DNA from: Deltaproteobacteria bacterium
GTDB taxonomy: Bacteria; Bdellovibrionota_C; UBA2361; OMII01
Assembly: GCA_947488865.1 (NCBI GenBank)
Contig: CANLCB010000004.1
Coordinates: forward strand, 1 to 49,133
DNA: 49,133 nucleotides
Reading direction: 5' to 3'
The translations under genes were made by a program, and so were the position numbers. This document shows, piece after piece, positions 1,527-18,938 of this stretch. The number at the start of each line of letters is the position of its first letter. The first letter of the stretch is position 1. The notes beneath the pieces were generated by a model. That model was not told the origin of the DNA. It made no database searches and saw nothing but the letters and a program-made list of their open reading frames with translations.

Positions 1527-2042
1527 TTAAGATCCAAACTCTAACTTCAGGTATTCATCTAGACTAGAGATACTCGAGTCCACAAATCGAACAATCCCCT
1601 GCTTGTCGATGACCACCGCGTACGGAATTGAATCTCCCTGATAGTTAAGAAACGCGTCATCCTGCGTATCATTTCCAGAGAATATGTGGGTCATCGTTCT
1701 TAAATCTTGCGCCTTGATACGATCCTTGAGCGTTCCGAAGTTCTCATTCTTGTCGACGCTAATAGCGTAAAAGTCGATGTCCTGGCGCTGCGAGTATCGA
1801 CGAGCTAATTCCTCATACTCAGCGATCGCTGTCTTCGAGTGTTTGCACCAGGTGGCCCAGAATACGAGCACACCGTATCGACCCTGCTGAGCGCTCAACG
1901 GGAACTCGGTACCGTCGAGCAACATCAAACGAGCGTCGGGTGCCGGCTGTCCGATGAGCTGCTTGCCTTTCATCCCCAAGACACCGCAACCACCAAGCGA
2001 CAGCACACATAGGAAGATTAGCAGAGATCGCAACGCTTTCAT
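1527..2042 (-). CDS. TlpA/AhpC-TSA-type thioredoxin-fold lipoprotein with a CxxS active site
   Basis: This is a 171-residue exported lipoprotein: a hydrophobic signal peptide ends in the lipobox LGGC, with acylated Cys19. The rest is a thioredoxin-like domain of the TlpA/ResA type. The motif FWATWCKHS places one cysteine at 66 and a serine (Ser69) where the resolving cysteine of WCxxC should be. The cis-proline segment (DSIPYAVVID) and the C-terminal strand are intact. CxxS thioredoxin folds can hold mixed disulfides or bind thiols but cannot run the usual dithiol cycle. The gene follows the Tad/SctV-like operon after a 65-base gap, so it may belong to it (for example in folding an exported component) or have its own promoter. 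The fold is sure; the partner is unknown. Confidence 0.85.
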   Translation of the reverse strand: MKALRSLLIFLCVLSLGGCGVLGMKGKQLIGQPAPDARLMLLDGTEFPLSAQQGRYGVLVFWATWCKHSKTAIAEYEELARRYSQRQDIDFYAISVDKNENFGTLKDRIKAQDLRTMTHIFSGNDTQDDAFLNYQGDSIPYAVVIDKQGIVRFVDSSISSLDEYLKLEFGS

Positions 2043-2107: not shown

Positions 2108-4546
2108 TTACGACACAGAAGCAGCTTGTGTGCGGTCTCGGATGATAGAGATACGCTCTTCATAGGTCCGACGTACGACAGGATCCTGCTCTCCCTCATA
2201 CGCCTGCTGGATCAGCTTTAGAAGAAGAATGTCGTTAGCTTCTGACAGATATCCCACCGCCTGCGCTCGCACAACAGGGTCGGGATGCGACAATAGGTCA
2301 ATTATATCCGTAGGCTCTAAGATAGGCGCGAATCGTGGAAGAGCCGCCTGCACTACATTTGTAGGAGCGTCGCGAATAATCTGCTGCGCAAAGGCCTGAT
2401 TAGCCGGCTCGACTTCAACTCTGCTGAGCGCCTGCGCAAGCACCTCTTTGCTTACGGTGTTGCGCAACGCCAACGCGGCGATGAGGAACGAATAACGACC
2501 ACTGTCACCCCGGAAAGAGGCCTCTACAAATTCCAGTATCCCCGATACATATCCGTCGCCCAGCGGCTTCGAACGCAAAGCCTCGTAGGCCCTCGCCACC
2601 ATTTCGCTATCCGAGGAGGTAAGAATGACCGCTTGCAAAGCCCGCACCGAAGCAGGGTTATTCCACGCGGCGAGAACCTGAACATTCTCTTTTGAAAGCT
2701 GATTGATCACACCCGACACAAGCGAAGCCCGAACTTCGGTATCCACAGCGCCGACCCGCTGCAACTCTGTTAAGAATATCTCTCCTGGACCACTCGCGAC
2801 GCCTCGAACCTGCGCGAGCTGAGCGACCGTCGCGATGCCAGAGCGCTCTCGCCTTCCCATCTCTTCCAAAAGCCAAGAGATCTCTTGAGGTGAAAGGCCG
2901 GCCGATGGACTGGCACCTTGCTGAACAATACTTTCCGAGAAAAGATCATGCACCTCGGGTAACAAAAGCATCAGAGCCAGGTCGTTGTGAGTGCTCGCGC
3001 CCTCAAATCCAAGCTGCTCGTGCACAGCGCGAACGAATATCTCATGGAACATTTCAGGGTGCCCTCGATCGAGAGCCAACGCGGCCGCCAAGCGCGTCGC
3101 CAGGCTGGGATTCAAATCATAGCCACTGATCAAAAGCTCTTTACGAGCCGAGTCCGACTTCGACGGGTCAAGTAGCTTGAGCCCTAGCATAAGGGCCGGA
3201 CTTTGAGCGCTCTCTGGCCCCATTCCTCGCTGATAGGCGTCCATACGAACGACATCAGACGCCCCCACAAGTCCCATGCGACGGGAGCGCGTAACCATAC
3301 CATTAAAAACATACTCTCTTCGCCGGGGGGAATCCGCCTCGCGAAAGGCTTTTTCCAACACACCTTGAACGAGCGGATCATCCGACATGACCCAACGCGT
3401 CATTTGGGCCTGCTCCTTTTGGCCCACCATCACGACTGCCTCATTTGCAGGGGCGCTTATCGAGTCTCGGTTCAACAATATCACCGCTAGAAACGCGAGC
3501 GCGGCTATGTTCAGGCCAGTCAATACGAATACCACTCGACGTTTCTTTTGAGCGGCTGCGACGTGCGCTGTTTGCTTTATCTGTTTTTCAGGGGCCTTTC
3601 CAATTCCAGAGGATTGCTTGCGCCCACCCGCCGACTGCGTCTCGGCCGGGACAACGGGCTTTTGCATCAGCGATCTTTCCTTCACTTCACTATGAGCGGT
3701 AACTTTTACTGAGGACTCAGAAGCGGCTTCTTGGTCTCTCCCACCGATGACCTTATCACTCTCGACTCCGCCCACGGCGCCCACTACCTCTACCGGAATC
3801 GCTTTTTTCTCCTCGGAGAGTCGAGCCGTTAACGCCTCCGCCTTCAAGCGGAGGTCACTCATGATATTCTCTGATGTCGGTCGTCGGATGCGATTCTTCT
3901 TGCTGTTCGTGGAAGAGGTGCGATTGACGCCTGCCATAGCCGTCAATTTTTCACCGATCTTGCAGAGATCTCGCATATCCGTGGGTTCATCTACGTCGGC
4001 ATCGCTACCGGCCGTAGAGGAACCCGGCTCACTGCTTTCAGCACTTCCATCATGTGTGACCCCGTTATCAAACCGAGGTACGCCCAAGGGAGCGAGCAGC
4101 ACCACATCCCCGGTTCTTGTTACCACGAATGAGGACGGGCTCAGGTCTCCACACGTCACTCCGAGCTCATGCAATCTCTCCACTAAATTAACGCACAAAG
4201 AGTATCGCCTATCGCGCTCGGCGGCGTCAGCGCTCGGATCATCGAGCCGAACTCGGCTCACATGCTTGACCACGGCGTAACCATATCGCTCAGAGTCTAC
4301 CCCGAACTGGAGAATTGGCGCGACGAATCGAAAACCCCGAAGCTTGGCCAATCGGGCGCAGAACCGGTCTATATCCGTCACCGCTATTGGACGGCGAGTG
4401 ACCCACACAATCTCGGGATCCGCCTTCGAAGAAGTGGACACTCTAAACGCTTCGGCGGCAGGCGTTTCGCTCAACTTCTCGGCGCACGGGAATGCTTCCG
4501 CGACTCTTCCTGGTAACACCAAAAATCCTTTGGACTCCGTCGCCAT
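2108..4546 (-). CDS. Membrane-anchored degenerate kinase-like protein with helical-repeat C-terminus
   Basis: The ATG at 4546 gives 812 residues and lies 20 bases after the stop of the FHIPEP gene; a GTG at 4588 would overlap that gene and is less likely. The first 170 residues follow the layout of a Hanks kinase, but the key residues are gone. The catalytic loop reads CGDLSPSSF (about 132-140) instead of HRDLKPEN, there is no DFG, and there is no VAVK lysine. A charged, low-complexity linker leads to one membrane segment (about 338-358). About 450 mainly helical residues follow, and the end (HPDPVVRAQAVGYL) resembles HEAT repeats. The layout suggests a cytoplasmic pseudokinase joined to a periplasmic scaffold. 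As the next-to-last gene of the Tad locus, it may sense or anchor the phosphorylation module at the machine. No function is assigned from homology. Confidence 0.75.
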   Translation of the reverse strand: MATESKGFLVLPGRVAEAFPCAEKLSETPAAEAFRVSTSSKADPEIVWVTRRPIAVTDIDRFCARLAKLRGFRFVAPILQFGVDSERYGYAVVKHVSRVRLDDPSADAAERDRRYSLCVNLVERLHELGVTCGDLSPSSFVVTRTGDVVLLAPLGVPRFDNGVTHDGSAESSEPGSSTAGSDADVDEPTDMRDLCKIGEKLTAMAGVNRTSSTNSKKNRIRRPTSENIMSDLRLKAEALTARLSEEKKAIPVEVVGAVGGVESDKVIGGRDQEAASESSVKVTAHSEVKERSLMQKPVVPAETQSAGGRKQSSGIGKAPEKQIKQTAHVAAAQKKRRVVFVLTGLNIAALAFLAVILLNRDSISAPANEAVVMVGQKEQAQMTRWVMSDDPLVQGVLEKAFREADSPRRREYVFNGMVTRSRRMGLVGASDVVRMDAYQRGMGPESAQSPALMLGLKLLDPSKSDSARKELLISGYDLNPSLATRLAAALALDRGHPEMFHEIFVRAVHEQLGFEGASTHNDLALMLLLPEVHDLFSESIVQQGASPSAGLSPQEISWLLEEMGRRERSGIATVAQLAQVRGVASGPGEIFLTELQRVGAVDTEVRASLVSGVINQLSKENVQVLAAWNNPASVRALQAVILTSSDSEMVARAYEALRSKPLGDGYVSGILEFVEASFRGDSGRYSFLIAALALRNTVSKEVLAQALSRVEVEPANQAFAQQIIRDAPTNVVQAALPRFAPILEPTDIIDLLSHPDPVVRAQAVGYLSEANDILLLKLIQQAYEGEQDPVVRRTYEERISIIRDRTQAASVS

Positions 4547-4566
4547 ACAAGAGCATTCCAATAAAA

Positions 4567-6675
4567 CTATCGAGTCGCGAGACTCCACACTCCCACTTGC
4601 TGCACAGGCACGCTTGGGTCGAGTTCCTCAAAAGTTGTTACGAACAAAGGATGAGTATACATCCGCACGAGCGAGAGAACCTTCTCCTTAATTTCCTGCG
4701 AGCACAGCAAGGCTATTGGTAAAACCCCATTCTCTAGGGATGGTCGCAACACCACAGAGAGTCCGTTGTGCAAAGCCGACAAGTCCGTGTCATCCAACGC
4801 GAGTGGAAGCGAACGGCCACCAAAATCGGCGTCAGCCAAGAGCTGCTCCACTTCTGGAGCTATCGAGACTACGTGCAAACTTTTGCCTGCCCCGATAAAG
4901 CGCCGCAAAACCTGTCGTCGTCTATTACTTCGCAAATGGTGCACCACTTCGGATATGTCCACCGCGCTGTCGCCACCCATCGAGATATTTTGAGACACGC
5001 AATATGACGAAACTCCCTCAATAATTCCCCTAAAATCTCGGATGCTCACTCCTTGGCGAACAAGCTCATTGAGAAGCTCAGCGATCTTTGGAATTGGCAA
5101 GAAATCTTTCCCGAACCCCTCTTCGATCAATCCGGGATGTCTCTTTTCGACCGCTCGCAACATTGAGTGAACGTCTGTTACCGACAAGAACTCTTCTGGA
5201 TGCCTCAAGCAGAAGCTCGCGACCCGTAAAGCGACGTACTCAAAAAAGTCCCGAGCCCTAAACCCTGCCGCCTCCACTATCGCTCTGGCTCGAGGGGATG
5301 CCGCTGTCCAAAATACTCGGTGGCCTGACACCGGATGCTCTTCTTCCCTAACAACGGTTAACCCTAAGATACGCGCCTGAGAGCTCGAGATCTCCATGAA
5401 GGCCCCATCAGCCACCACTCCTCCGGAGAGCATTTCCACCCCGCCCCTGCTCACGCGAAACGCGCCTGATGGAAGCCTGTCGCTCATCCGAACACTGATT
5501 TCGGGCAAAGATATTCCCACATCGTTGTAGAACTCTTCCTTGAACGAGGACCACGCCGCAAGATGTTTAGAGGCACTCGACCGATAGAGTCGAAAAAGAG
5601 TGACACGATCAAGCTCAATAACGAGCGAGTCGTCATACGCGTCTACCTCTCCAGCTCCGCCTACCCCTTGCGATATTACGGAGCCCCGGCGGAATTCGGC
5701 GGAGGGCATTGAACTGCTCGGCATTTCACGTTCCTTTCGGATCAGCCACACGCCAGCCCCGGCAGCGATGCCCGAAACCAAAACGAAAGGAAACGCTGGA
5801 ATCCCTGGAAGAGCCGCGAACACCAGAAGGATTACAGCGGTCACCACGAGAGTTGTCGGCTGTGAGAAGAGCTGAGTTCGGAGGTCCATTCCAAGACTGG
5901 TCGAGTCTGACGAGGAAACCCTCGTGACAATAATCCCCGCGCAGATCGAAGTAAGGAGACTCGGTATTTGGGTTACAAGGCCGTCACCAACCGTGAGGAC
6001 AGTGTAGGTTTGAATCGCGTCTTGAACACCGAGTCCCGACGCTATCCCCATGTAAACGCCGCCCACAATATTTACTATGATAATGAAGAATCCGGCGACC
6101 GCGTCTCCCTGGACGAATTTCATGGCTCCATCCATAGAACCATAAAGCTGAGACTCAAGGCGAAGGTTGTCGCGTTTTTTTCTCGCATCATCGGCGGAAA
6201 TCACACCCGCCCGCGCGTCGTTATCAATAACCAGCTGCCGCCCCGGCAAAGAGTCGAGGAAGAACCGAGCCGCGACTTCGGAAACGCGAGTGGCTCCCTT
6301 CGCGATTACAATGAAATTCACGACAGTGACGATGGAGAAGATGATGACACCAACGACCACCTCGCCACGAATGAGAAACGTTCCAAATGCCTCAATTACC
6401 CGTCCAGCGTCCCCTTGGCTTAGAATGAGCCGCGAAGACGCGACGTTCAGGCCCAGTCTAAATAACGTGCTTAAAAGCAAAACGGTTGGGAACGTATAGA
6501 GCGTGGCTGAATTTGAGACATAGAGCCCCACCAAGAGGAGCAAGATTGAAAATGAAATATTTACCACTAAAAGAAGATCGAGCAACGGCGTGGGAAGAGG
6601 CACGATGAGCATGGCGGCGATAGCCACGACAAACGCGAGCAGAACAACCTCTGAGTATCGAATGCGGCGAAACAT
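4567..6675 (-). CDS. FlhA/SctV-family (FHIPEP) export gate protein inside a Tad locus
   Basis: The 702 residues match the full length of the family. About seven or eight membrane segments occupy residues 8-315, and a cytoplasmic export-gate domain occupies about 340-702. The cytoplasmic loop carries the family signature: KGATRVSEVAARF (126-138), LPGRQLVID (143-151) and YGSMDGAMKFV (178-188). The form SQLYG.MDGAMKFV is nearer to type III secretion SctV than to flagellar FlhA, which has ADFYGAMDGASKFV. These proteins form a nonameric ring that admits substrates and chaperones to the type III export channel. No other type III genes (SctR, S, T, U, N or secretin) are in the window. The gene lies 26 bases after tadC in the same direction, so it is probably co-transcribed with Tad genes. 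The family is certain; the role here is open. Confidence 0.93.
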   Translation of the reverse strand: MFRRIRYSEVVLLAFVVAIAAMLIVPLPTPLLDLLLVVNISFSILLLLVGLYVSNSATLYTFPTVLLLSTLFRLGLNVASSRLILSQGDAGRVIEAFGTFLIRGEVVVGVIIFSIVTVVNFIVIAKGATRVSEVAARFFLDSLPGRQLVIDNDARAGVISADDARKKRDNLRLESQLYGSMDGAMKFVQGDAVAGFFIIIVNIVGGVYMGIASGLGVQDAIQTYTVLTVGDGLVTQIPSLLTSICAGIIVTRVSSSDSTSLGMDLRTQLFSQPTTLVVTAVILLVFAALPGIPAFPFVLVSGIAAGAGVWLIRKEREMPSSSMPSAEFRRGSVISQGVGGAGEVDAYDDSLVIELDRVTLFRLYRSSASKHLAAWSSFKEEFYNDVGISLPEISVRMSDRLPSGAFRVSRGGVEMLSGGVVADGAFMEISSSQARILGLTVVREEEHPVSGHRVFWTAASPRARAIVEAAGFRARDFFEYVALRVASFCLRHPEEFLSVTDVHSMLRAVEKRHPGLIEEGFGKDFLPIPKIAELLNELVRQGVSIRDFRGIIEGVSSYCVSQNISMGGDSAVDISEVVHHLRSNRRRQVLRRFIGAGKSLHVVSIAPEVEQLLADADFGGRSLPLALDDTDLSALHNGLSVVLRPSLENGVLPIALLCSQEIKEKVLSLVRMYTHPLFVTTFEELDPSVPVQQVGVWSLATR

Positions 6676-6701
6676 TTCCTTTCAGGCCCTCACCTACTAC
6701 T

Positions 6702-7619
6702 CTATCCACCCATTCCCTTAGTCATGCTTGTACCAAAGCCGACCAACAAAATGATAATAAACCCTAAAAACACCAGCCCCACCGGAGCGGTAGCGATAAG
6801 CTCAAGTTTTTTTATCTTCTCCTCCACCCGAGTTTCTCGAGCTGAGGAAACCGCCTCAGAAAGGTCTTGCAGCTGCTTTGAGATCTCACCACCATACCTC
6901 GCGACCTGCGCGAGGGCTTTGAAAGAGTGCTGAATGTCGTTATTTCCCGACAGCCGCCCCACCTCTTGCAGAGCGTCCTGCAAGCTAACGCCTGATTTTA
7001 TGAAAAACTGCGCGTATCGAAGAAGTTCGGTGACCGGATTATGCGTATCGCGCTCGTCCGCCATCTCTACGACACGAGCCAAACAAGGTCCAATATCGAG
7101 CGAGCTACTTACACCGATCGAGACCTGCTCTATCACCAGAGGTAGATAGAACATGATGTCTTCGTCTCGTCGCTTTCGCTTCTTCTCCAGGGTTTTCTTA
7201 GGTATCAGGGTCCCAAGAATCACGGCCCCCAATGGCATCAGCAACAAGTGTTGGGGCCGACCTGTGAACGTGGCTAGCAATAGAGCAACGACAGCGAGAC
7301 AAACTGGCAACAAAATCTGCAATCGGCGAAAGTCCTGCTTTTGCTTATCCGAGAATAGGCCAGCGTAGAACATCAATTCTTCATACGAGGGATCCCCTGA
7401 TTTTCTGGGGGATTTTTTTTGAGTCTCGTCTATCGGCAGTCCGATGTCGTCGACCTCTTCGAGACTCGCCGGAGGGGCGCTATCCTCCAAGTCCAGCCGT
7501 TGTTGCATCAACCCGCGCAAATTTTCTCGCCGTGACGTGGAGCGGATATAGCGATAGCCGAAAGCGAATACCATCACTACGGCAACCACGGTGGCTGGTA
7601 TGATCATCCAAATATCCAT
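6702..7619 (-). CDS. tadC: TadC-like inner-membrane platform protein
   Basis: This 305-residue protein has a T2SSF-type domain in its C-terminal half (about 155-290) and membrane segments near residues 5-22, 105-140 and 278-298. The stretch from PLVIEQVSIG to GEISKQLQDLSEAV has the GspF/TadC pattern. TadB and TadC form the inner-membrane platform on which the TadA ATPase drives pilin assembly. The linker after the first membrane segment is charged and low in complexity. The gene starts six bases after tadB and is followed 26 bases on by the SctV-like gene. The family is clear, and the name TadC is given by position after TadB. Confidence 0.88.
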   Translation of the reverse strand: MDIWMIIPATVVAVVMVFAFGYRYIRSTSRRENLRGLMQQRLDLEDSAPPASLEEVDDIGLPIDETQKKSPRKSGDPSYEELMFYAGLFSDKQKQDFRRLQILLPVCLAVVALLLATFTGRPQHLLLMPLGAVILGTLIPKKTLEKKRKRRDEDIMFYLPLVIEQVSIGVSSSLDIGPCLARVVEMADERDTHNPVTELLRYAQFFIKSGVSLQDALQEVGRLSGNNDIQHSFKALAQVARYGGEISKQLQDLSEAVSSARETRVEEKIKKLELIATAPVGLVFLGFIIILLVGFGTSMTKGMGG

Positions 7620-7625
7620 AACGCC

Positions 7626-8621
7626 TTACACTCGAATGTTTGTCACTTGGCGAACCCAATACATTCCCGTCAAGATGAGCGCCAAACCGACTTGAGCTAC
7701 CTTTTTCGCTCCGGGGTCTGTCCATGTTACAGTCACGCAGTCGGGCCACGCGAAGTACAAATACAACTCCAGCGAACTCAGGATTCCCAAGATAAAAAGG
7801 ATAGAGCCCCGTTGAAGTCCGACAGCCGCGTTAGCGGAACTTCGGAAGTATTGTCGTTTTCGAACCTGACGAGCCAATCGATCCAAGGTATCGGAGAGGT
7901 TTCCTCCGACACGCCGACTTAACGTGAGCGCCTGAACAAATAGTTCGATCTCGGGATGGTTAATATCTTCCCCAAAAGAACCAATAGAACGCTCCTCACT
8001 TACTCCGAGGCGCAAACGCTCTAACATTAGCTCCACCTCCTTCCGAACAAGAGAAGAGTCCTCAAGATTGGTCGCGGCAGCCTCAAGCCCCTGGATTGGA
8101 TTGAGGCCCGTCTTGAGCATTCCAACTAAGGAGAGCAAGAACGCGGGATAGTCCTTATCGAATTTATCGACTCGTTGCTTGATGCGTCTATTAATAAGCC
8201 AGTTAACAAATAGGGGGCCTGCCATCAGAGACATGGCCTGAATCACGGACTCAAATAGTTGACTCGTTACAATGACGGCGGCGCTCGTCACCCCAAAAAT
8301 CGCCAGGGATACCATATAAGGAGGTACGTGGGAGAGTTGTGCGTATTTGAGTCGCTTTTGGAGCGTCAGCTTATTATCGAAACTTTTAAGGGTATTATCG
8401 GCCTCGTTATCCTCGCTGTCCTTAGTCTCGGACTCGTCCGATCGCGCCTCCTCTAACTCTAGCCGGGCCTCGTGAATACTTCGATGCGTCGCCGCCATTT
8501 CGCGGATACTCTGCCGCATCGCGACCTCAGCGGAACCGGAGATCCCAAGAATATCCCGGCCTAGGTATACAATAAGCCCGACTGTACCAAGCGTAAGCAG
8601 CAGTATGGGCAAAGCAGCCAT
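7626..8621 (-). CDS. tadB: TadB-like inner-membrane platform protein
   Basis: The 331-residue protein has a T2SSF domain at about 160-290, including GMLKTGLNPIQGLEAA and SRRVGGNLSDTLDRLA, the paired glycine-rich turns of GspF-like proteins. It has membrane segments near the N-terminus, around 108-140 and at the C-terminus. The start codon follows the tadA stop codon without a gap (TAG then ATG), which indicates translational coupling of ATPase and platform. It would sit in the inner membrane and transmit ATPase movement to pilin extraction. Confidence 0.9.
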   Translation of the reverse strand: MAALPILLLTLGTVGLIVYLGRDILGISGSAEVAMRQSIREMAATHRSIHEARLELEEARSDESETKDSEDNEADNTLKSFDNKLTLQKRLKYAQLSHVPPYMVSLAIFGVTSAAVIVTSQLFESVIQAMSLMAGPLFVNWLINRRIKQRVDKFDKDYPAFLLSLVGMLKTGLNPIQGLEAAATNLEDSSLVRKEVELMLERLRLGVSEERSIGSFGEDINHPEIELFVQALTLSRRVGGNLSDTLDRLARQVRKRQYFRSSANAAVGLQRGSILFILGILSSLELYLYFAWPDCVTVTWTDPGAKKVAQVGLALILTGMYWVRQVTNIRV

Positions 8622-10163
8622 CTATCGTTTTCCTCCCAGAGGTGAGCTTGGCTTTACTTGCGCGCCGAAGGTTATCTCTTGAGGAGACTCTCCGAGATGT
8701 ATGCCATCCGCCTTCAGCTGCTCATCGAAATTGCTGGTCCAAGAGTCAACTCGCCACACCGGTCGAGCCCCCTGCTTCATCAGTGTGAACATTGGTCGGA
8801 TTTGAATGGTACCTTCGACGAAATGCCCAACCTCTATGATTTCGGCGATGCGCGGCTTACCCGTCGATTTTTCTCGGATGAGCCACACCACACAGTCAAC
8901 CGCGAGGGCGATCTGTTGTCGAATAATGTCTATCGCGACAGATTTTTGCGCTCGCCCAAGGAGGCTCTCTAGTCGTACAAGAGTTTCACGAGCGTTTCGC
9001 GCGTGGATTGTCGACATTCCGACGTGACCAGTTTGCGCGCTCTCAAGAAACGCCTCAGCCGCGAATGGAGTTCTCATCTCTCCCAGGATTACCCGAGTGG
9101 GGGTCATTCGCAGAGTAGTTTTAATGTGCTCTTGTAGAGTAACCTCGCCGACACCTTCCGCGTTAGCCGGTCGCGATACGAGAGACCGGAAGAACGGGTG
9201 GCTAAAATTCAACTCCGGAGTATCCTCTACCGCGACGATGGATTCGTCCGGTCCGAATTGGGTCGCAAGACATTTAATGAGGGTGGTCTTTCCAGTTCCG
9301 GTCTCGCCCGCGATCATCATGGTCGCCAATCCGCTACGCACGAGACACGCTAGGTAATTTACGATCAGCGGCGGCGCCACTTGATAGGATACGATATTCT
9401 CGAGAGCCACCTCCGACATTCGGGGAACTCGAATACAGAGGAGTGGTCCACGTTGACCGCATACACTTTCGTGCACCGCGCAAATTCGTGTCCCATTCGG
9501 GAACGAAGCGTCTACAGTGTGCTGTTGCGTCGTCAATGATTTTCCCAAGCGAAGCAACAACCGATCAAGAAAGGTCACATAGGCTTGATGATTCGGCCAG
9601 CTTAATCCAGTCGCCTCACTTACCTTACCACGTTGTAGTACGACCGATTTGTAATCATAGACGTGAATGTCTGTGACTTCTCGGTTGTCGACGAGCGGCT
9701 GTAGCACTCCCCATCCGATCAGGTCCTTCTGCAAAGAGATGATGATATTCGCTCTCTCGATATCATCAATGTTCTCTCCACGTTTCTTGAGAACTTTATC
9801 CACAGCTTGAGCGATGACACGCTCAGTGGTCGCCTGATTTGTCATTTGCTGCTGCAGCGCTGGGTCGCTACCAAGCTCTCGACGCACCTCTCGCATCACC
9901 GTGGACGCCGCTGGAGAGAGTTCTCCGCTTTTGGCGACTTGCGCTCGAGGCACGGGCTTAGTCACCTCCGCCTGCTTCTGTGTCATTTCGCCCGGCTGCC
10001 GGACCAACGGAGCTTGCTCCGAGCCGGGGTCCGGCGATGGAAGAGCGTCGTGCTTTTGAGTGAGTTCCTGTATGACAGCACGAGACGGCAACCTGGTCTG
10101 GGTGCCACGGGTGGAGAAGAGCCCTAACAAGCCCTCTTTATTGTCTTTGTCCGAACCAGACAT
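8622..10163 (-). CDS. tadA: TadA/CpaF secretion ATPase
   Basis: This is a 513-residue hexameric-type secretion ATPase of the VirB11/CpaF branch. An N-terminal extension of about 110 residues, rich in charge and proline, precedes the conserved helical N-domain (110-170) and the ATPase core. The Walker A motif GETGTGKTT is at 286-294, the Asp-box (VEDTPEL) at 312-318, the Walker B region (RVILGEMR) at 357-364, and the conserved STIHA at 384-388. It powers Flp pilin assembly from the cytoplasm. AGAGGA lies just before the ATG. A 236-base gap with no gene separates it from cpaB upstream, so a second promoter is possible there. Confidence 0.96.
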   Translation of the reverse strand: MSGSDKDNKEGLLGLFSTRGTQTRLPSRAVIQELTQKHDALPSPDPGSEQAPLVRQPGEMTQKQAEVTKPVPRAQVAKSGELSPAASTVMREVRRELGSDPALQQQMTNQATTERVIAQAVDKVLKKRGENIDDIERANIIISLQKDLIGWGVLQPLVDNREVTDIHVYDYKSVVLQRGKVSEATGLSWPNHQAYVTFLDRLLLRLGKSLTTQQHTVDASFPNGTRICAVHESVCGQRGPLLCIRVPRMSEVALENIVSYQVAPPLIVNYLACLVRSGLATMMIAGETGTGKTTLIKCLATQFGPDESIVAVEDTPELNFSHPFFRSLVSRPANAEGVGEVTLQEHIKTTLRMTPTRVILGEMRTPFAAEAFLESAQTGHVGMSTIHARNARETLVRLESLLGRAQKSVAIDIIRQQIALAVDCVVWLIREKSTGKPRIAEIIEVGHFVEGTIQIRPMFTLMKQGARPVWRVDSWTSNFDEQLKADGIHLGESPQEITFGAQVKPSSPLGGKR

Positions 10164-10399
10164 TCCTCTGCCCCCTTAGATAGGTGTTCCCAGTTGGACA
10201 ATCGGCCTGATTACGTTTCCGGATAAGAGATTTGCGCTAAAAAGGGCGTAAAATAACAGTGGTTTAAGAACTAAGTCGTGGGATTGGCGGCCTGATAATA
10301 GGTCAAGGGCTCCTCAAACACTAGGCTGACCACAAAGTTTCGATTCAGTGAGCCAACAGTATCGTGAACGTGCGGGATACCCCCCCCCAACAACACGTT

Positions 10400-11275
10400 T
10401 TAGTCCTTTGTATCGAGAGATTCCTGAGGAACCAGTTTTCCGTCGATTATGGCGAAAACCCGGCTCCCAACTTTAACGGTGCCTTCGCGCCCCGGAACAG
10501 GCGTCCCTTGGCGGGATGGGATGCCAAAAACAGCGTCTATCGAGACGGTGGTGCTCTCAGCAGACTCAACCGTCTCCTCGTCACCTCGCAAGGAGAGGCT
10601 CATCTGACCAGCGGTAGAAGCGAGCTGAATCTTAGCGGCCTCCTCCACAGTTACCATGATGGTAATAGTCGTAATATCACCTTTCCCTTTCGCCGCGGCT
10701 ATCTGCCCTGCCGACAACACCTTAGCGTTCTGCACGACCATCGTGATGACCGGTTTTCCATTCAGCTGGGACGCTAACATTACGTCAACCTTCGCTCCCG
10801 CTCGTACCCAGCCTTCGACATTCGACACATCATCGACCGCTATGGATACCGCCCGAAATCCATCGGGAATATTTGCCTGTATTTCATTGATGGGAGCCTT
10901 CGATGTCATGTACTCCGCAAGGAGGGGCTGTCCAGCGGCGATAAATGAAGCAGCATAGGCCCCTCGAAGTTTGTCGAAGGATGTAATCAAAGTGGTAGTT
11001 CCGACAGCAATGGCGCGGGTTTCTTTGCGAAATTTCGACGGGTCAAGAGCAGCTCCCGCTTCTATCTTCTCTGCCGCCACGAGGCAGTCAACCATGTTGA
11101 TAGAGGGAGGCGCGGGTGTCGGCACGACTTGCGGCTCGATCAAGGGGGGCTCTGAACGCAAAAGAAGTGCAGAGGCGCCAATAACGAGTACGAGAAAAGA
11201 ACCTAGAGCTACTATCGTCGGTGAAATGGACGATTTTGATCGCACTGTCGTTCGGCTGTTTCGTGCCGTTGGCAT
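10400..11275 (-). CDS. cpaB: CpaB/RcpC Flp pilus assembly protein
   Basis: The 291-residue protein has one N-terminal membrane segment (about 22-40), a short proline-rich spacer, an SAF-type domain (about 62-125, starting CLVAAEKIEAGAAL) and the RcpC/CpaB domain (about 138-240, with GFRAVSIAVDDVSNVEGWVRAG). CpaB/RcpC is a periplasmic, membrane-anchored part of the Tad machine thought to work with the outer-membrane secretin CpaC/RcpA. The secretin gene is usually next to cpaB but is missing here. It lies 64 bases after the third pilin gene. Confidence 0.93.
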   Translation of the reverse strand: MPTARNSRTTVRSKSSISPTIVALGSFLVLVIGASALLLRSEPPLIEPQVVPTPAPPSINMVDCLVAAEKIEAGAALDPSKFRKETRAIAVGTTTLITSFDKLRGAYAASFIAAGQPLLAEYMTSKAPINEIQANIPDGFRAVSIAVDDVSNVEGWVRAGAKVDVMLASQLNGKPVITMVVQNAKVLSAGQIAAAKGKGDITTITIMVTVEEAAKIQLASTAGQMSLSLRGDEETVESAESTTVSIDAVFGIPSRQGTPVPGREGTVKVGSRVFAIIDGKLVPQESLDTKD

Positions 11276-11339
11276 GCGCTTCCTTTACATTTGTTACGCA
11301 CGAGGCGTAACGGGTTCCGACCGAACGAGTCCTGGCACT

Positions 11340-11501
11340 CTATTTGATGGTATTGCTGAAATTGGTGAGCTTTGTGGTGATGCCTACACCCATGCTTTTT
11401 GTCGCCGCTAGCGTCAATAGTGCCAAAAAGGCGATTAGAATCGCGTATTCCACTATGGAATTGCCCTTTTCGGTTCGCTCTTTATCACTCGCGGTTAACA
11501 A
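11340..11501 (-). CDS. Divergent Flp-type pilin with TTG start
   Basis: This 53-residue gene is easily missed. It begins with TTG at 11501, nine bases after a perfect AAGGA; no ATG is available in frame. The product has a 13-residue leader ending in EKG, then NSIVEYAILIAFLALL. This is the class IV Flp prepilin pattern, with cleavage after glycine and the invariant E-Y five and six residues on. The hydrophobic core and the polar tail (TKLTNFSNTIK) match the two pilins upstream in layout, but few residues are shared. It could be a minor or tip pilin. It sits between the major pilins and cpaB on the same strand. Confidence 0.82.
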   Translation of the reverse strand: MLTASDKERTEKGNSIVEYAILIAFLALLTLAATKSMGVGITTKLTNFSNTIK

Positions 11502-11589
11502 AACCCAATATCCTTCAACAAACCAGGTGTCGAAGCTTGCCTCGACACCTACGTACGGTTTGGAAATTAACGAATCAGTCGCTAACTTC

Positions 11590-11766
11590 TTATTTGATAG
11601 CGGTGTTAATAGCGGTGAACTGATTGTTCACCTTAGTTCCCAAGGCGCCTACCGCAGAAATCGCGACAACCGCAATCAAGGCCACCAGGAGAGCGTACTC
11701 CACGAGGGACGCGCCCTTCTCTTGACTGTGTTGGGCTTCAGCTACTTTATTATTTACATTGTCCAT
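11590..11766 (-). CDS. flp: Flp-type major pilin, copy 2
   Basis: The 58-residue prepilin starts at the ATG at 11766, preceded by GGAG. The leader ends QEKG, and the mature protein begins ASLVEYALLVALIAVV, with the glycine-cleavage site and the Glu-Tyr pair of Flp pilins. The mature sequence is nearly the same as copy 1, with a few substitutions (SAVGALGTKVNNQF against TAVGTLGTKVSSQF), while the leaders differ. The gene begins 31 bases after copy 1, a tandem duplication. Processing needs a TadV/CpaA-type prepilin peptidase, which is not in this window. Confidence 0.96.
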   Translation of the reverse strand: MDNVNNKVAEAQHSQEKGASLVEYALLVALIAVVAISAVGALGTKVNNQFTAINTAIK

Positions 11767-11797
11767 TGTATCTCCGTATAACTCAGTGGGTAACTTA

Positions 11798-11974
11798 TTA
11801 TTTGAGCTGGCCCTGAATCGCATTGAACTGAGAGCTCACCTTAGTTCCCAAAGTGCCCACAGCGGTAATTGCCACAACCGCGATCAACGCGACCAACAGA
11901 GCGTACTCCACGAGGGATGCGCCCTTCTCGTTTAGGCCCTTAACGTCAATTTTTTGACTATCTATATAATCCAT
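11798..11974 (-). CDS. flp: Flp-type major pilin, copy 1
   Basis: The 58-residue prepilin starts at ATG 11974, preceded by GGAG. A longer reading frame to 12112 has no pilin-like sequence upstream and is not used. The leader MDYIDSQKIDVKGLNEKG is hydrophilic. The mature part starts ASLVEYALLVAL and ends GTKVSSQFNAIQGQLK. It is the first pilin of the tandem set and has a 182-base leader region after cpaE. That region probably holds a pilin promoter or control site, although no clear sigma-54 (GG-N10-GC) or sigma-70 signature is visible. Confidence 0.96.
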   Translation of the reverse strand: MDYIDSQKIDVKGLNEKGASLVEYALLVALIAVVAITAVGTLGTKVSSQFNAIQGQLK

Positions 11975-12156
11975 GTTGTCTCCGTTATTAAAAAACCATT
12001 TCGACTCTTTGTCGTCTCCCCCACAAGACCAACTTCGCTGGTAGAGGCGTTTAACAAGATTCGCAAATCCCCAGTAAATGTTAACTGGGCGATCAGGTCG
12101 GCACAAGAACATTTTTCATCCCCTCAACCTCACAACCTACGTAGTCAGTAAATCCC

Positions 12157-13443
12157 CTAGCTGTGCGCTCCCTCAGACTTCTTAGAAAAGATCCGCTGAA
12201 ACCAACGGGGAGCTGACATTGAGGTCTTCTCGCCTGACTCATCAAGCGCACCCCCAGCATTGTCAATCGAACCGGTACTCACATCCCCCAGCAGCCCCAA
12301 CTCTCGCGATATTTGCTCTAATACCTGCCGAATTTGCTTATTGCCCATACTGTAAAGGGTCTTTCCTCTGCCCGGCCAAAGTGACGCTTTGGGATCTCGA
12401 GGGATTGCTGGCAGACGCCACGGCGCCGATCCAAGCTTGTGCGCGGGCTCCAGCTCCGCGGCCATCTCCTGGACACTCATGAGGGCGCCCGAGGCCGGAT
12501 TAACGACGAAGGTTATGCGCTCTGGATTTCCCACAACAGACTTCACAAACGAGAGAAAGCGATCGAGGGCCGTCAATCCCAAAACGGTGTCATCAATAAC
12601 GACAAGCACCGCGTCGGCGATGCGAACAAGAGCGCCAGTCGCGGGCCCAAGTCGACCAGCGGTATCGATGAGAACAACATCATTATCCGCTCGAGAAACT
12701 TCGGCGATTCGCTGCGCGATGGCCATTCCGTCCGTGTGGCACACGAGGTCCATAGCGTCAGCGAACCGTTCGGGGGTCGTGAGCAACCCAACGTCCTGAC
12801 CAATCGGAATGAGCGCGTTGCGCAGCGTATCTCGATCTATTTCCTGCGCACCAGTCATCCACGCGCTCACAACTTTTTCCTCGGGGCCGTACGCGTTGAG
12901 CCCTCGACTCAAGTCTCGAGTTTCGACATCCAGATCCCACAGCATCGTACGGCGACCATACTCACTGCACACATCGGCGAGCGCCGCGGCGATCGAAGTC
13001 GCGCCAACTCCCCCTTTCGCGTGCGTCACCACAACGATCTTCCCTTCATGAGTCCTACCGTCTCGACGAAACTCGGTGTTAATCGCCACCAACTCCTGAA
13101 GGAAGTCCAGCGGAGTCGCGCTGTCGGGGAATACCTTTCGAACTCCTGCGGAATGCGCGAGTCGAAACGCTCCTCCACCGTAGGCACTGTCCGATACAAA
13201 CATGATCATTTGAGCCCATGGCGCAAGCGAGCTCGCCTGCCGCGCTATCGCGATTGCGGTATCTCCAAGGCCAGATCCGACGACGATAACATCGACATCG
13301 GCAACTCGTTGGGCAAAGTCTTTATCGCTTGCCAATTTAACCTTAAGGTCAAGCATCTCCAAATCGCCCCGACTAAACGACTTTATTCGTTTAGCGCAGA
13401 GCGCCTGAGCTTCGGTCGTCTTATCTACTATGAGCAATTTCAT
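12157..13443 (-). CDS. cpaE: TadZ/CpaE-like ParA-family ATPase-fold protein
   Basis: The 428-residue protein has a receiver-like N-terminal domain (about 1-115, starting KLLIVDKTTEA) and a MinD/ParA-type domain from 134. The deviant P-loop reads KGGVGATS (143-150), so the usual lysine before the threonine is an alanine. This is common in CpaE/TadZ proteins, which often bind ATP weakly or act as dimeric localisation factors. Later motifs (WDLDVETRDLSRGL, VLIDTAGRLGP) follow ParA. TadZ positions the Tad machine, commonly at a pole. The gene is 12 bases after the kinase gene, so kinase and localisation factor are probably made together. Confidence 0.92.
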   Translation of the reverse strand: MKLLIVDKTTEAQALCAKRIKSFSRGDLEMLDLKVKLASDKDFAQRVADVDVIVVGSGLGDTAIAIARQASSLAPWAQMIMFVSDSAYGGGAFRLAHSAGVRKVFPDSATPLDFLQELVAINTEFRRDGRTHEGKIVVVTHAKGGVGATSIAAALADVCSEYGRRTMLWDLDVETRDLSRGLNAYGPEEKVVSAWMTGAQEIDRDTLRNALIPIGQDVGLLTTPERFADAMDLVCHTDGMAIAQRIAEVSRADNDVVLIDTAGRLGPATGALVRIADAVLVVIDDTVLGLTALDRFLSFVKSVVGNPERITFVVNPASGALMSVQEMAAELEPAHKLGSAPWRLPAIPRDPKASLWPGRGKTLYSMGNKQIRQVLEQISRELGLLGDVSTGSIDNAGGALDESGEKTSMSAPRWFQRIFSKKSEGAHS

Positions 13444-13455
13444 GACACTTTTCTT

Positions 13456-14922
13456 TTAAAAATGAAGTTTCGCTAGCAATGACGGAGCAAACAGTTTCAA
13501 AAACATAAAGCCACACCCTATCCCTACCGCAGCCGCTATTCCCAACGCGAGCATGTCGCCAAAAATCGCCTTAGTACCCGAATTCTGTCGGGGGCGACCT
13601 TGATGTCGCTTGTCGCGATATCCGTGACGAGTTGGTAGCCCAGAAGGACTTCTCCACGACTCGGATACTACATCACCAGCGGAACCAAGTGTCGGTCTCG
13701 ATGGGCCACTCGAAGGTCGTGACTCCATGTCTGTTTCCACCGCGTAATCCACAAACGAGGCGCTCAAAATTTCAGTCGCTGGGGACGTCACGTCCTCGAC
13801 AACTCGCCTCTCCGAAATATCGAAATCCGCGATATCATCGTCTGGCATGGAGTTTCGTCGCGCTTTCTCGCTTCCGCCGGCGACCATTACTTCCGCGGAG
13901 CGAACGGCGCTATTCACTCGACCACTCTTTCCACTGTTTTTCGGCTCCACCGAGCCGGCGGCTTTCTGCGTAGGCTCTTCCTCGAACTTAAAGACCGGTC
14001 CCTTACGCTGGGACTGCCCTAATTGATTCGGCACAACAGCAGCTCCACCCGAGGCGCCCGCGATACCCAATTTAGCCGCGAGAGTTTGCAGGTCGTAAAA
14101 CATTTCAATCGACGCCTGATACCTGTTCTCCGGATCTCGCTGCATAGCTTTCAAAATTATCGCGTCCAACTCAGCAGGACAGTCAGGTCGCAGCTTGCTT
14201 GGTGGCTCAGGATCGGTCTTAAGGCGCTTCGTCATGGTGGCGTAAACGCTTTCTCCACGAAACGGAGGCTCTCCAGTAACCATTTCGTACGCAAGTATAC
14301 CGAGGGCGTATATATCCGACCTCCAATCAACCTGCGATTTCAGCATGTACTCGGGAGCGACATAATCAATGGTACCGACCACCCCGCCGTGCTCGGTGAG
14401 CTTTGGACCGTGCCTGTTCCGAGCAATTCCGAAATCCGCGATTTTAACATTCCCTTCTTTAGTAAGTAGGATGTTCTCAGGCTTTAAATCTCGATGAACT
14501 ATGTCGGCGTCATGAATAGCTTGGCATCCTGCCGCCATCTGCGCCAACAGACGGACAATTTCGGCGATCGGCATTCGCTCATCACTCGACAACCTCTCCG
14601 CTAAATCACCACCCCCCACATACTCCATGGTATAGGCGACCAGATCTCTATCGGTGAGATACTCGTACGCGCGAACCACATTAGGATGGGAAACTCCATA
14701 CGACGCTAAGATCTCGTTTTTGAAGCGCGCTGAGGACACTTTGTCCTCAGCCACCTCAGGAAACAGAACCTTTACCGCGACTATCTGCCCTTGAAGCTCT
14801 CGATGCCGGCAAGCGTACACCAGTCCCATGCTGCCTTTGCCGAGGCATTTGACTACCTCATACTTTCCTCCTAGCACCGTACCGGGCTGGAGAGTAATCG
14901 AATGTTCTTCCGACATGCTCAT
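13456..14922 (-). CDS. Hanks-type Ser/Thr protein kinase with C-terminal membrane anchor
   Basis: A complete kinase domain covers residues 21-285: glycine loop GKGSMGLV (28-35), VAVK with Lys51, helix-C Glu70, catalytic loop HRDLKPEN (143-150), DFG (163-165) and APE (189-191). A linker of about 150 residues rich in Ser, Arg and Lys follows. A single membrane segment (about 458-477) ends the 488-residue protein with only a short tail outside. It is an active-looking PknB-like kinase without extracellular PASTA or sensor domains. Its place between the FHA gene and cpaE, 15 and 12 bases apart, suggests that it phosphorylates the FHA partner or Tad components. Confidence 0.95.
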   Translation of the reverse strand: MSMSEEHSITLQPGTVLGGKYEVVKCLGKGSMGLVYACRHRELQGQIVAVKVLFPEVAEDKVSSARFKNEILASYGVSHPNVVRAYEYLTDRDLVAYTMEYVGGGDLAERLSSDERMPIAEIVRLLAQMAAGCQAIHDADIVHRDLKPENILLTKEGNVKIADFGIARNRHGPKLTEHGGVVGTIDYVAPEYMLKSQVDWRSDIYALGILAYEMVTGEPPFRGESVYATMTKRLKTDPEPPSKLRPDCPAELDAIILKAMQRDPENRYQASIEMFYDLQTLAAKLGIAGASGGAAVVPNQLGQSQRKGPVFKFEEEPTQKAAGSVEPKNSGKSGRVNSAVRSAEVMVAGGSEKARRNSMPDDDIADFDISERRVVEDVTSPATEILSASFVDYAVETDMESRPSSGPSRPTLGSAGDVVSESWRSPSGLPTRHGYRDKRHQGRPRQNSGTKAIFGDMLALGIAAAVGIGCGFMFLKLFAPSLLAKLHF

Positions 14923-14937
14923 GAATTACCTTGGCGC

Positions 14938-15957
14938 TTACGCCTCATCGACACCTAACAAGCACACGTGAAATTTTCTCTCTCCGAAGAAAATTATGTC
15001 GCCATGAGAAGCGTTCGCCTTATCACCTGAGAGAAACTCCTCCCCTTCCCCATTTGCGCGACGAATCCGCGTACCCGCCTCAGAGAGCTGATCGAGAACT
15101 TGCAACACACTGCCCTCCGAGACTCTCATGATCGCGTGCATAGGCGACACTGAAGCATCTGGAATGAGCAAACAACTACCGGACGCCTCTTTGTTACAAG
15201 AGATAATCAATCGCCCCGGTCGTAGCTCTACATATGAGCCGTTCGGATTGTGATCAAAAGATATAAGAAACCCTATCAAACGCCCCTCGCTCTTCCAAAA
15301 GATCTGTTCATGCGATGATGTCATAGCGACCTCCTTTTTGGGCTCACGACTCTCGAAAGTTTCTTTTACGGGCACCGGGACCTCCGATACCGCCGGCACC
15401 TCCTCATGCTGGACAGGAGTCGGCGCGACAAAAGCGCTCGGGCGCACAATCCTACCTACCGATACCGCCGCGGCCTTGGGAGGCTCCGGCTCACTGGCCC
15501 CGACGACATCCTCTTGAAAATCAAACGGATCACTATCCTCCGCTTGAGCCACCACCTCTGATTCGTTCGTCGGAGGCAACATAGCTTCGAGAGGCAAATC
15601 AAAGACATCATCAAGCGCCTCCATCGCGGTCGCGGACTCCGATGGCTGCTCCTCTTGTACATTCAGGTCCACGTATGGATCTTCGTAGGGCTCAACCGCT
15701 TGGAATGAGTCCGCCTCCTCTGGCTCGTCCTTTTCCCCACCAGGAAACGCATCCAACAAGGAATCTTCGATTCGTCGTCGAGCCTCTACATCCCCACTAG
15801 CTTTAGCCTCTCGGAGAGCCTTAAGGTCGGAACGAATTTGATGGGAGCGTCCGCCATCCACAACCATGGTGCGATTACGCGCTCGATTTGCCTGAGAGCT
15901 ATCACCATCGTCAGATAGTCTGAACAATCCTTTTTGAGAGCGGTTTTTATCTTCCAT
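14938..15957 (-). CDS. FHA-domain phosphothreonine-binding protein
   Basis: The 339 residues fall into a long acidic, low-complexity N-terminal region (1-215) and a C-terminal FHA domain (about 225-337). The domain holds GR at 248-249, the phosphopeptide-binding SPMH at 271-274, and a C-terminal strand FGERKFHVCLLG. The usual N-G-T/S loop is replaced by EAGT near 293-296. FHA domains bind phosphothreonine, and in type VI secretion a Fha protein links a kinase (PpkA) and phosphatase (PppA) to assembly. Here the FHA gene lies between a kinase and a PP2C gene with gaps of 11-15 bases. No membrane segment is present, so the protein is cytoplasmic. Confidence 0.88.
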   Translation of the reverse strand: MEDKNRSQKGLFRLSDDGDSSQANRARNRTMVVDGGRSHQIRSDLKALREAKASGDVEARRRIEDSLLDAFPGGEKDEPEEADSFQAVEPYEDPYVDLNVQEEQPSESATAMEALDDVFDLPLEAMLPPTNESEVVAQAEDSDPFDFQEDVVGASEPEPPKAAAVSVGRIVRPSAFVAPTPVQHEEVPAVSEVPVPVKETFESREPKKEVAMTSSHEQIFWKSEGRLIGFLISFDHNPNGSYVELRPGRLIISCNKEASGSCLLIPDASVSPMHAIMRVSEGSVLQVLDQLSEAGTRIRRANGEGEEFLSGDKANASHGDIIFFGERKFHVCLLGVDEA

Positions 15958-15968
15958 ACTTTTAATAC

Positions 15969-16940
15969 CTAGCTTTGCTTACTCTCGATAAACAGAAAGG
16001 CGGCGGCCGCTACACACGCGAAGATGACGCTCAACATCGAAACACACGCGATATGCAGAACAAAGGGCCACGGAGGCCTGTTAGCCGCGACGCGCTGACG
16101 CGTACGGGTCTTTAGCACTTGATCCCAGTCGGCCGGAGGCTCTCGCGAGACGACTCCATCGACCGGAATTATCATCACTGAGATGTTGTCGAATCCTCCC
16201 CGCGCGTTTGCCAACTCAACGAGCTTTTGACATGCTTCGTTTGGCGGGAAGAAGGTCACCATACTGGCGATCTCCTCGTCAGATACGAGTCCATACAAGC
16301 CATCTGAGCAGAGGAGCAGAATATCACTGTCCTGCCCGGCTCGAAGCGGCGACCGCCACAAGCGTTGCGCCGGAACGGAAAGCTCAACCTTCGTTCCCAG
16401 GCAATGCGTTAAAAGGTGAGCGTCGGGATGAGAGAGCGCCTCTTCTGGTTCAATTTGCCCCGCGTCAACCATTCTTTGCACGACGGTGTCGTCGACAGTG
16501 AGCTGTGAAATCTTCCCGTCGTGGATACAATACGCTCGAGAATCCCCAACGTGGGAAACGACCATCTCGATTCCGTCGATCATCGTGGCCACGACGGTAG
16601 TCCCCATGGATATAAATTTCTGGTTTTGCCTGCGCAGCACAACCGCTCGATTCCCCTCGTCGATCGCGCCTTGGAGGATTGCGCCGGGATCGGCGCATTC
16701 ATGCCCATCGATGAAGCGCTTCATGGCGTCAAGAGCAAGCTGCGCGGCAAACTCGCCGCCAGCGACTCCTCCCATCCCATCAAGCAGAATCCAAGCCGTC
16801 CCCGAGCGGCTTGCAATAACAGCAACTCGATCCTCATTCACCTCTCGCTCTCGACCAACGTCGGACACGTTCGCGTCGCCCCATAACGAATGAGGCGCGT
16901 TTTTAGAATTATGTGAGGTGCCTTCGAGAATCATCTTCAA
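15969..16940 (-). CDS. PP2C-family Ser/Thr phosphatase with C-terminal membrane segment
   Basis: The 323 residues contain the PP2C metal-binding and catalytic motifs: NED (35-37), LLDGMGG (52-58), SHVGDSRAY (129-137), CSDGLYGLV (211-219) and GGFDNISVMI (248-257). The protein ends in one membrane segment (about 291-318). It would remove phosphates from Ser/Thr targets of the co-encoded kinase near the inner membrane. It is the first gene of the Tad locus, so the promoter should be upstream of 16940. The AT-rich stretch near 17070-17120 is the best area to look, but no standard promoter with good spacing was found. Confidence 0.95.
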   Translation of the reverse strand: MKMILEGTSHNSKNAPHSLWGDANVSDVGREREVNEDRVAVIASRSGTAWILLDGMGGVAGGEFAAQLALDAMKRFIDGHECADPGAILQGAIDEGNRAVVLRRQNQKFISMGTTVVATMIDGIEMVVSHVGDSRAYCIHDGKISQLTVDDTVVQRMVDAGQIEPEEALSHPDAHLLTHCLGTKVELSVPAQRLWRSPLRAGQDSDILLLCSDGLYGLVSDEEIASMVTFFPPNEACQKLVELANARGGFDNISVMIIPVDGVVSREPPADWDQVLKTRTRQRVAANRPPWPFVLHIACVSMLSVIFACVAAAAFLFIESKQS

Positions 16941-18909: not shown

Positions 18910-18938
18910 CGCTCAGGATAGTAGCCCTACGCTGAGCG
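18910..18938. other. Perfect 7-base inverted repeat across the RsbU stop codon
   Basis: CGCTCAG (18910-18916) and CTGAGCG (18932-18938) can form a hairpin that includes the stop codon of the receiver-RsbU gene. No T-run follows on the minus strand, so it is not a typical terminator. It could stabilise the 3' end or limit read-through into the DUF2231 gene. Confidence 0.4.

Follow-up and report, generated by a model that had tools for sequence, protein, structure and literature searches.

A divergent sctV gene between Tad pilus genes and type III secretion genes, and the probable fusion of the two systems

Gene content of the Tad run

The Tad pilus genes of a Deltaproteobacteria bacterium (Bdellovibrionota_C; assembly GCA_947488865.1) are followed, directly after tadC, by a gene for SctV, an export-gate protein of the FHIPEP family. 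The window in which they lie is the whole stretch of DNA analysed, 49,133 nucleotides long; it is a complete contig (CANLCB010000004.1, here C4) of an assembly of 1.47 Mb in 86 contigs that is rated 70% complete. The minus-strand gene series reads from position 16940 to 1527 and encodes a PP2C phosphatase, an FHA-like protein, a protein kinase, CpaE, two Flp pilins, CpaB, TadA, TadB, TadC, SctV, a pseudokinase with HEAT repeats and a TlpA-like lipoprotein. The end of tadC (6702) and the start of sctV (6675) are separated by 26 bases, and sctV overlaps the next gene by 22 bases. The features of the run, all on the minus strand, are:

15969..16940 (-), PP2C-type Ser/Thr phosphatase that heads the run (Pfam PP2C, E-value 1.6e-11; NCBIfam Stp1 family, E-value 3.8e-62, 210 bits, below the cut-off of 230)
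14938..15957 (-), protein with a C-terminal FHA-like domain (FHA E-value 0.0056, below cut-off)
13456..14922 (-), Ser/Thr protein kinase (Pkinase E-value 3.1e-55; HRDLKPEN and DFG motifs by eye)
12157..13443 (-), CpaE/TadZ-type ATPase (AAA_31 E-value 7.4e-13; the CpaE name is from family fold and position)
11798..12112 (-), Flp pilin 1 (Flp_Fap E-value 4e-11)
11590..11823 (-), Flp pilin 2 (Flp_Fap E-value 5.1e-11)
11524..11551 (-), terminator-like hairpin of 12 pairs directly 3' of the pilin genes, a possible attenuator (pattern scan)
10400..11275 (-), CpaB/RcpC (RcpC E-value 1.3e-18)
8622..10163 (-), TadA/CpaF motor ATPase (T2SSE E-value 2.3e-31; TadA-family model E-value 7.1e-62, under cut-off)
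7626..8621 (-), TadB platform protein (T2SSF E-value 1.4e-12)
6702..7619 (-), TadC platform protein (T2SSF E-value 4e-12)
4567..6675 (-), SctV export-gate protein (FHIPEP; tree position; core columns kept)
2108..4588 (-), probable membrane pseudokinase with a C-terminal HEAT-repeat domain (HEAT_2 E-value 1.7e-7; structure model; Foldseek matches to kinases)
1527..2042 (-), TlpA/thioredoxin-like lipoprotein, last of the unit (AhpC-TSA E-value 5.1e-16)

By Pfam and NCBIfam, the Tad set of TadA, TadB, TadC, Flp pilin, CpaB and CpaE is present in the window. A preliminary description of this DNA had reported an FHIPEP gene placed behind tadC in the same direction, within a Tad run led by a kinase, FHA and PP2C set, and these statements are borne out: the gene is full-length and all three regulatory genes are present, the FHA match being weak. 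It had also stated that other type III parts are absent nearby, and among the window open reading frames scanned with Pfam (a part of them) no further export-gate family was matched. The pseudokinase and TlpA-like genes, which it did not list, are both part of the unit. The position of the PP2C gene is kept in relatives whose contigs extend that far, as is that of the FHA-like gene in relatives and that of the TlpA-like gene in many genomes of the window's order. By eye, the C-terminus of the FHA-like protein resembles an FHA protein of the type III secretion system (T3SS) cluster described below. Just upstream of the run (18927-20078 of the window), a SpoIIE-type phosphatase whose N-terminus looks receiver-like by eye is another possible phospho-signalling part.

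SctV as a separate group of FHIPEP proteins

The window SctV has 702 amino acids, and its match to the Pfam FHIPEP model spans 2-656 of 657 model positions (E-value 1.3e-171). It scores 559 bits against the NCBIfam SctV model (cut-off 692) and 506 bits against the FlhA model (cut-off 772); because it is below both curated cut-offs, it is filed at family level as a divergent FHIPEP member. The SctV-like signature noted in the preliminary description, SQLYGSMDGAMKFV, is present, and the protein retains the columns that are invariant in an alignment of 12 flagellar, T3SS and Tad-linked proteins.

Two trees place the protein. The first, a quick tree with some long rows, comprised 82 of 149 collected FHIPEP proteins, and in it the Tad-linked SctV proteins, together with those of genomes G012 and G013, are separated from the rest by a branch with support of 99. 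The second, which is unrooted, retained 46 of those 82 rows; omitted were the long rows L298-L301, L282/L283 (from G012/G013), L303 (same genus code as L265) and 29 others. Here 22 Tad-linked SctV proteins comprise one side of a 100/99 branch, and on the other side are flagellar FlhA, the SctV of a second, "B-type" T3SS (see below), Myxococcota SctV and other T3SS SctV. At the level of sequence, Tad-linked SctV is its own FHIPEP group. A role for the window SctV as the flagellar gate is ruled out; an FlhA that scores above the cut-off adjoins FliP, FliR and FlhB on contig C48 of the same assembly.

Conservation of the tadC-sctV junction

The comparison set consisted of 45 genomes of the phylum, whose members are environmental bacteria that have been little studied, all of a single class, with 28 in the window's order and 17 in other orders. 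Window-type SctV was found in 41 of the 45 (26 of 28 within the order, 15 of 17 outside it) and was not found in G034 and G039 of the order or in G014 and G016 of other orders. The frames are mostly open; four copies show one stop inside the matched stretch, some lie at contig ends, that of G040 is in two fragments and that of G003 is split across two contigs.

SctV directly follows TadC in 37 of these 41 genomes (each of the 26 from the order, 11 of the 15 outside it), with gaps of -14 to 329 bases. Among the genomes that keep the adjacency, SctV identity to the window protein drops below 40%, and conservation in 37 of 41 genomes despite this divergence argues that the adjacency is more than chance. 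It likewise rules out a stray or chimeric contig. Of the other four, G012 and G013 have no Tad gene beside SctV, and for G015 and G021 the contig ends at SctV. On contig C2 of G032 (L263:1-1600), fliP-, fliQ- and fliR-like genes lie slightly upstream of the PP2C-FHA-kinase-Tad-SctV run, and the first of them scores like flagellar FliP.

The seam between TadC, SctV and the rest of the run is extended by the pseudokinase gene, an orthologue of which is located directly after SctV in every examined contig that extends past SctV. By eye, the kinase-like domain of this protein lacks the HRD and DFG motifs. Its structure model (mean predicted local distance difference test score, pLDDT, 76.7) comprises a kinase-like fold, a long helix at residues 341-375 that would fit a membrane span, and a helical solenoid. 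Nearly all Foldseek matches shown are protein kinases, at E-values of about 1e-4 and low query TM-scores, and one is Cex1p; Pfam recognizes the HEAT repeats and, in the orthologue of G022, a weak kinase match. The SctV-pseudokinase loci of G012 and G013 are at L320:10130-14663 and L321:10334-14500, respectively; G012, at 1.2 Mb, is the smallest genome of the set.

Continuation into a type III secretion cluster

In the other orders, the gene run does not stop at the seam. SctV is followed by the pseudokinase and then by a T3SS gene, FHA2, in 11 of 15 genomes (G015, G017, G019-G027). Nine of these (all except G015 and G021) have both tadC-sctV and sctV-pseudokinase-FHA2 on one contig and the same strand, and as far as the contigs reach, eight of the nine runs include SctJ, six SctQ and four SctR. 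The run of G020 reads CpaB-TadA-TadB-TadC-SctV-pseudokinase-FHA2-FHA-SctJ-small-SctO-SctQ-SctR-SctT-SctU-TPR, in which SctS was not called and TPR is a tetratricopeptide-repeat protein; that of G026 stops at SctQ, and the contig of G021 goes from SctV through SctR-SctS-SctT-SctU to TPR. The composite order is PP2C-FHA-kinase-CpaE-Flp-CpaB-TadA-TadB-TadC-SctV-pseudokinase/HEAT-FHA2-FHA(SctD-like)-SctJ-small protein-SctO-SctQ-SctR-SctS-SctT-SctU-TPR. The T3SS genes of G021 are recognized by Pfam as FliP (E-value 9e-52), FliQ (9e-14), FlhB (7e-23), FliMN_C (5e-15), FliJ (2e-10), YscJ (4e-17) and FHA/YscD. SctR, SctS, SctU, SctJ, SctQ and SctO are thus present together with SctV, by Pfam in G021 and by similarity in other genomes.

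A T3SS core of the same kind, termed cluster C, is found in the window's genus, from which 12 genomes were sampled. On contig C74 of G004, a genome that is 97% complete, it comprises two FHA proteins, SctJ, a small protein, a coiled-coil SctO-like protein, SctQ, SctR, SctS, a SctT-like protein, a short SctU and a TPR protein; neither SctV nor an ATPase was seen in the fetched stretches of this contig. The T3SS cluster on contig C146 of G001 is without SctV as well. In the window's order, none of the 20 contigs that run past the pseudokinase continues into T3SS genes, and cluster C is elsewhere; in G042 the Tad-SctV half and cluster C share a contig at a distance of about 63 kb. Of the 28 genomes in the order, 22 have a low-scoring third FliP of the C kind, and G032 shows a weak partial match. 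In a tree of 44 FliP-family proteins (three rows very long), C-type SctR from the order and from the Tad runs is set apart from B-type, flagellar, Myxococcota and other T3SS SctR at 98/96; a single clade is not established.

These results bear on the second explanation in the preliminary description, that the type III partners are encoded elsewhere and share regulation with Tad. It is supported by the genus clusters that lack SctV and by the same kind of cluster directly after tadC-sctV in other orders. A type III cluster devoid of its own SctV had been regarded there as speaking against a Tad link, as had a loss of the adjacency; such a cluster does exist, and the adjacency is strongly conserved, so the link to Tad is real.

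Other FHIPEP and type III gene sets

Three FHIPEP proteins are encoded in the window's genome: the Tad-run SctV, the flagellar FlhA (C48) and, next to SctJ and SctQ on C18, a shorter protein. Judged by identity, each of the 12 genus genomes has these three kinds, some copies being fragments. There are up to three FliP per genome, which in G004 belong to the flagellar cluster (C39), cluster B (C60) and cluster C (C74). Cluster B, or system B, is a second non-flagellar T3SS. Its part on C60 of G004 (L119:13544-17452) carries SctR/S/T (FliR included) and genes that weakly match SctI and FliK, and its SctU/FlhB is split into two genes that flank a large sensor kinase. The other part, on C18 of G000 (L006:1139-6771), holds a sigma factor, SctJ, SctQ and a shortened SctV together; in G004 the SctV of system B is found on C30, along with SctJ and SctQ. 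Since system B has its own SctV and none was seen in cluster C, the Tad-run SctV fits cluster C, and it is less likely to be the partner of system B, whose shorter SctV is found beside SctJ/SctQ.

Secretin, ATPase and SctU

Cluster C looks needle-less: it has no secretin or SctN within it, and its SctU is short. The N-terminal domain of RcpA/CpaC (PF13629) was found in none of the 45 genomes, and the control was matched in Caulobacter. The secretin domain itself (PF00263) occurs at most twice per genome in 44 of 45 (with none in G012) and three times in G000, where one copy is at a contig edge. Secretin neighbourhoods were examined in G004 and for one copy in G017; in G004, PilM/N/O-like genes surround one secretin and Gsp-like genes the other (names by eye). 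Because there is no CpaC-type domain and the G004 secretins are amid PilMNO-like and Gsp-like genes, no secretin could be assigned to the Tad or the T3SS half.

SctN was not found in cluster C, and members of the FliI/SctN family above the cut-off number at most two per genus genome. A second, lower-scoring kind of FliI/SctN is present in nine of the 12 genus genomes and is beside a SctL-like gene in the five looked at. In G004 this ATPase and its SctL-like neighbour are on C29 (L151:9285-11173), apart from both T3SS clusters and near a flagellar hook-like gene (by eye), and both T3SS may share the one ATPase. As to SctU, the FlhB match in G021 covers 2-235 of 335 positions, and seven of seven aligned proteins end before the C-terminal autocleavage domain.

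Other features of the window

No prepilin peptidase and no TadE/F/G minor pilins were matched among the scanned window open reading frames, and no genome-wide search for them was made. Terminator-like hairpins number 21 in the window against 16.3 expected, which gives weak support to the hairpin at 11524..11551; the promoter scan yielded 5 against 10.2 expected, below expectation, and the Rfam scan found tRNA alone. At 39295-43772 are two long genes (521 and 920 amino acids) with no Pfam match at an E-value of 0.001.

One fused machine or co-regulated neighbours

The gene content of the Tad-SctV-pseudokinase unit, its order, its conservation and its separate phylogeny are observed directly, as is the continuation into T3SS genes in nine genomes of other orders. 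The reading that probably accounts for them is that Tad and a needle-less T3SS, usually treated as distinct machines, constitute one genetically fused machine, with the SctV gene as the seam. A shared transcript, physical coupling, a transport path and a biological role are what such a fusion would imply, and functional coupling of Tad and T3SS is proposed here with fair confidence. In the window's order, the run would have been broken after the pseudokinase, such that SctV stayed with Tad and the remaining T3SS genes came to be elsewhere.

The mechanism that seems most likely can be outlined as follows. The TadA/B/C motor would build the Flp filament, and the inner-membrane T3SS export apparatus (SctJ ring, SctQ/SctO platform and SctRSTUV gate) would co-assemble with Tad. 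Cytoplasmic substrates might then be passed by the export apparatus to the periplasmic side, from where the pilus may carry or push them out and so replace the needle. The kinase, phosphatase, FHA proteins and membrane pseudokinase would switch assembly, perhaps on contact. The leading guess as to role, made by analogy with Kil and T3SS* in Myxococcus, is contact-dependent killing.

A stricter form of the proposal is a single envelope machine, in which the export gate forms part of a secretin-less Tad motor or docks on it, the Flp filament serves as needle and the pseudokinase/HEAT protein joins the two. This is put forward tentatively, as a possible but rather doubtful arrangement; if true, it would be a separate export-gate lineage devoted to pili, beside those of flagella and injectisomes.

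Several observations weigh against a fused machine. G012 and G013 have SctV-pseudokinase (with TlpA also in G012) and no neighbouring Tad gene. G016 and G039 have a C-type SctR cluster, and SctV of the Tad-linked group was not found in them. On C31 of G041 (L312:6926-16000), C-type SctR-S-T-U, small and TPR genes are back to back with the sigma-SctJ-SctQ-SctV set of system B, which means that the two T3SS of the order may not be cleanly separate and that the C genes there may pair with the SctV of system B. SctT has no Pfam match in G021 and a weak profile match to FliR (hhalign probability 35, E-value 4e-4), and is assigned mainly by position. No clear third FliP was found in six of the 28 genomes of the order, including the one with a weak partial match. 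In the window's assembly FliP, FlhB and FliR occur once each, beside the flagellar FlhA on C48, with no second copy (FliQ was not searched genome-wide); the 70% completeness is perhaps the explanation, but as it stands this genome shows the Tad-SctV half only, and it is in relatives that a Tad pilus and a needle-less T3SS are met in the same genome. No secretin could be assigned that would take the proposed machine across the outer membrane. Outside the phylum, a TadA match was near none of 75 SctV loci, for which at most 10 kb on each side, and in many cases less, was available; among 80 SctV loci, the only ones with a TadA match nearby are the five from the window's phylum. A TadA search in 21 genomes that carry such loci gave a match in seven, at 26-30% identity. 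Finally, the likeness to Myxococcus discussed below may be convergence or may be wrong.

The alternative with most to recommend it is that of two co-regulated machines that share a gene run and kinase/phosphatase control, with SctV never touching Tad parts. Contact cannot be shown by gene order alone, the SctV-pseudokinase pair of G012 and G013 does without adjacent Tad genes, and in the window's order SctV and the other T3SS genes are separate yet coexist. However, 26 genomes of the order and 11 others retain the tadC-sctV junction, no secretin could be assigned to either set, and the comparable pair of Myxococcus xanthus is described as co-localizing, with Kil recruiting T3SS* (PMC12075869). 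Separate but co-regulated machines are accordingly regarded as an unlikely explanation.

Recruitment of SctV by itself as a new Tad platform subunit, the first explanation in the preliminary description, has in its favour that SctV is the sole T3SS gate gene in the Tad run of the window and its order. The comparison with relatives does not support it: SctV accompanies a whole T3SS core, which directly follows it in other orders, a SctV-less T3SS cluster exists in the genus, and G012 and G013 have SctV with no Tad genes alongside. It is considered very improbable. Equally remote is a decaying T3SS that loses parts and hitch-hikes in the Tad run, for although SctU lacks its C-terminal part, needle, secretin and ATPase are not seen in the cluster and SctR and SctT are divergent, the frames are mostly open, gene order is conserved across the phylum, core FHIPEP residues are kept, and the same view of the Myxococcus system was rejected (PMC3459982) before function was shown (PMC12075869).

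A fused Tad-T3SS machine would be of interest in several respects. For Myxococcus, whose Tad pilus and needle-less T3SS are encoded in distinct clusters, it is still to be explained how the two cooperate; a lineage with both in one gene run is independent genetic evidence for a unit, plus a minimal parts list. The TadC-SctV-pseudokinase seam is a named place to seek contact, and a branch of FHIPEP outside flagella and injectisomes should be useful to the debate on the re-use of type III export.

Comparison with known systems

As in flagellar and injectisome gates (FlhA, SctV), the protein is a full-length FHIPEP member with conserved core columns; unlike them, it is below both NCBIfam cut-offs and in its own tree group. 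TadA, TadB, TadC, CpaB, CpaE and Flp genes are those of Tad/Flp pilus systems, from which the run differs by the extra SctV and pseudokinase/HEAT genes and by the absence of the RcpA/CpaC N-terminal domain from all 45 genomes. No description of a joint Tad-T3SS operon was found in the literature searched, with most subscription journals outside the search.

The T3SS of Myxococcales was placed by Abby and Rocha at the base of the non-flagellar T3SS, without secretin (PMC3459982). The T3SS considered here is likewise early-branching and secretin-less, but no join to Tad genes is described in the available portion of that paper, and the SctV is apart from the Myxococcota SctV proteins tested. Five of these, which may or may not belong to T3SS* loci, lie across the 100/99 branch from Tad-linked SctV in a tree that is unrooted. 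In the same paper the relic view of the Myxococcus T3SS was argued and then rejected, and its function was later shown experimentally (PMC12075869).

The closest parallel is with M. xanthus, which the preliminary description overlooked when it remarked that it knew of no Tad system with an export-gate protein. When this predator touches prey, its Kil Tad pilus assembles and recruits a needle-less T3SS*; prey lysis depends on this T3SS*, as does killing by three of four pilus tips (PMC12075869, PMC10433427). Kil and T3SS* co-localize (PMC12075869). Both systems are also reported for bradymonabacteria, which are predators (PMC11509652). The shared plan is a Tad motor paired with a T3SS core that is without secretin, needle and translocon, and Kil clusters have FHA proteins too. 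Common ancestry with the Myxococcus pairing is not established, because the SctV is on a different branch. As described, Kil includes the secretin KilC, SctN/SctL are encoded in the T3SS* cluster, and the loci are separate (Kil at mxan_3102-3108 and 4648-4661, T3SS* at mxan_2434-2464; PMC12075869, PMC10433427). In the phylum of the window, by contrast, no secretin could be assigned, SctN is elsewhere, and in several genomes Tad and T3SS are encoded in one run.

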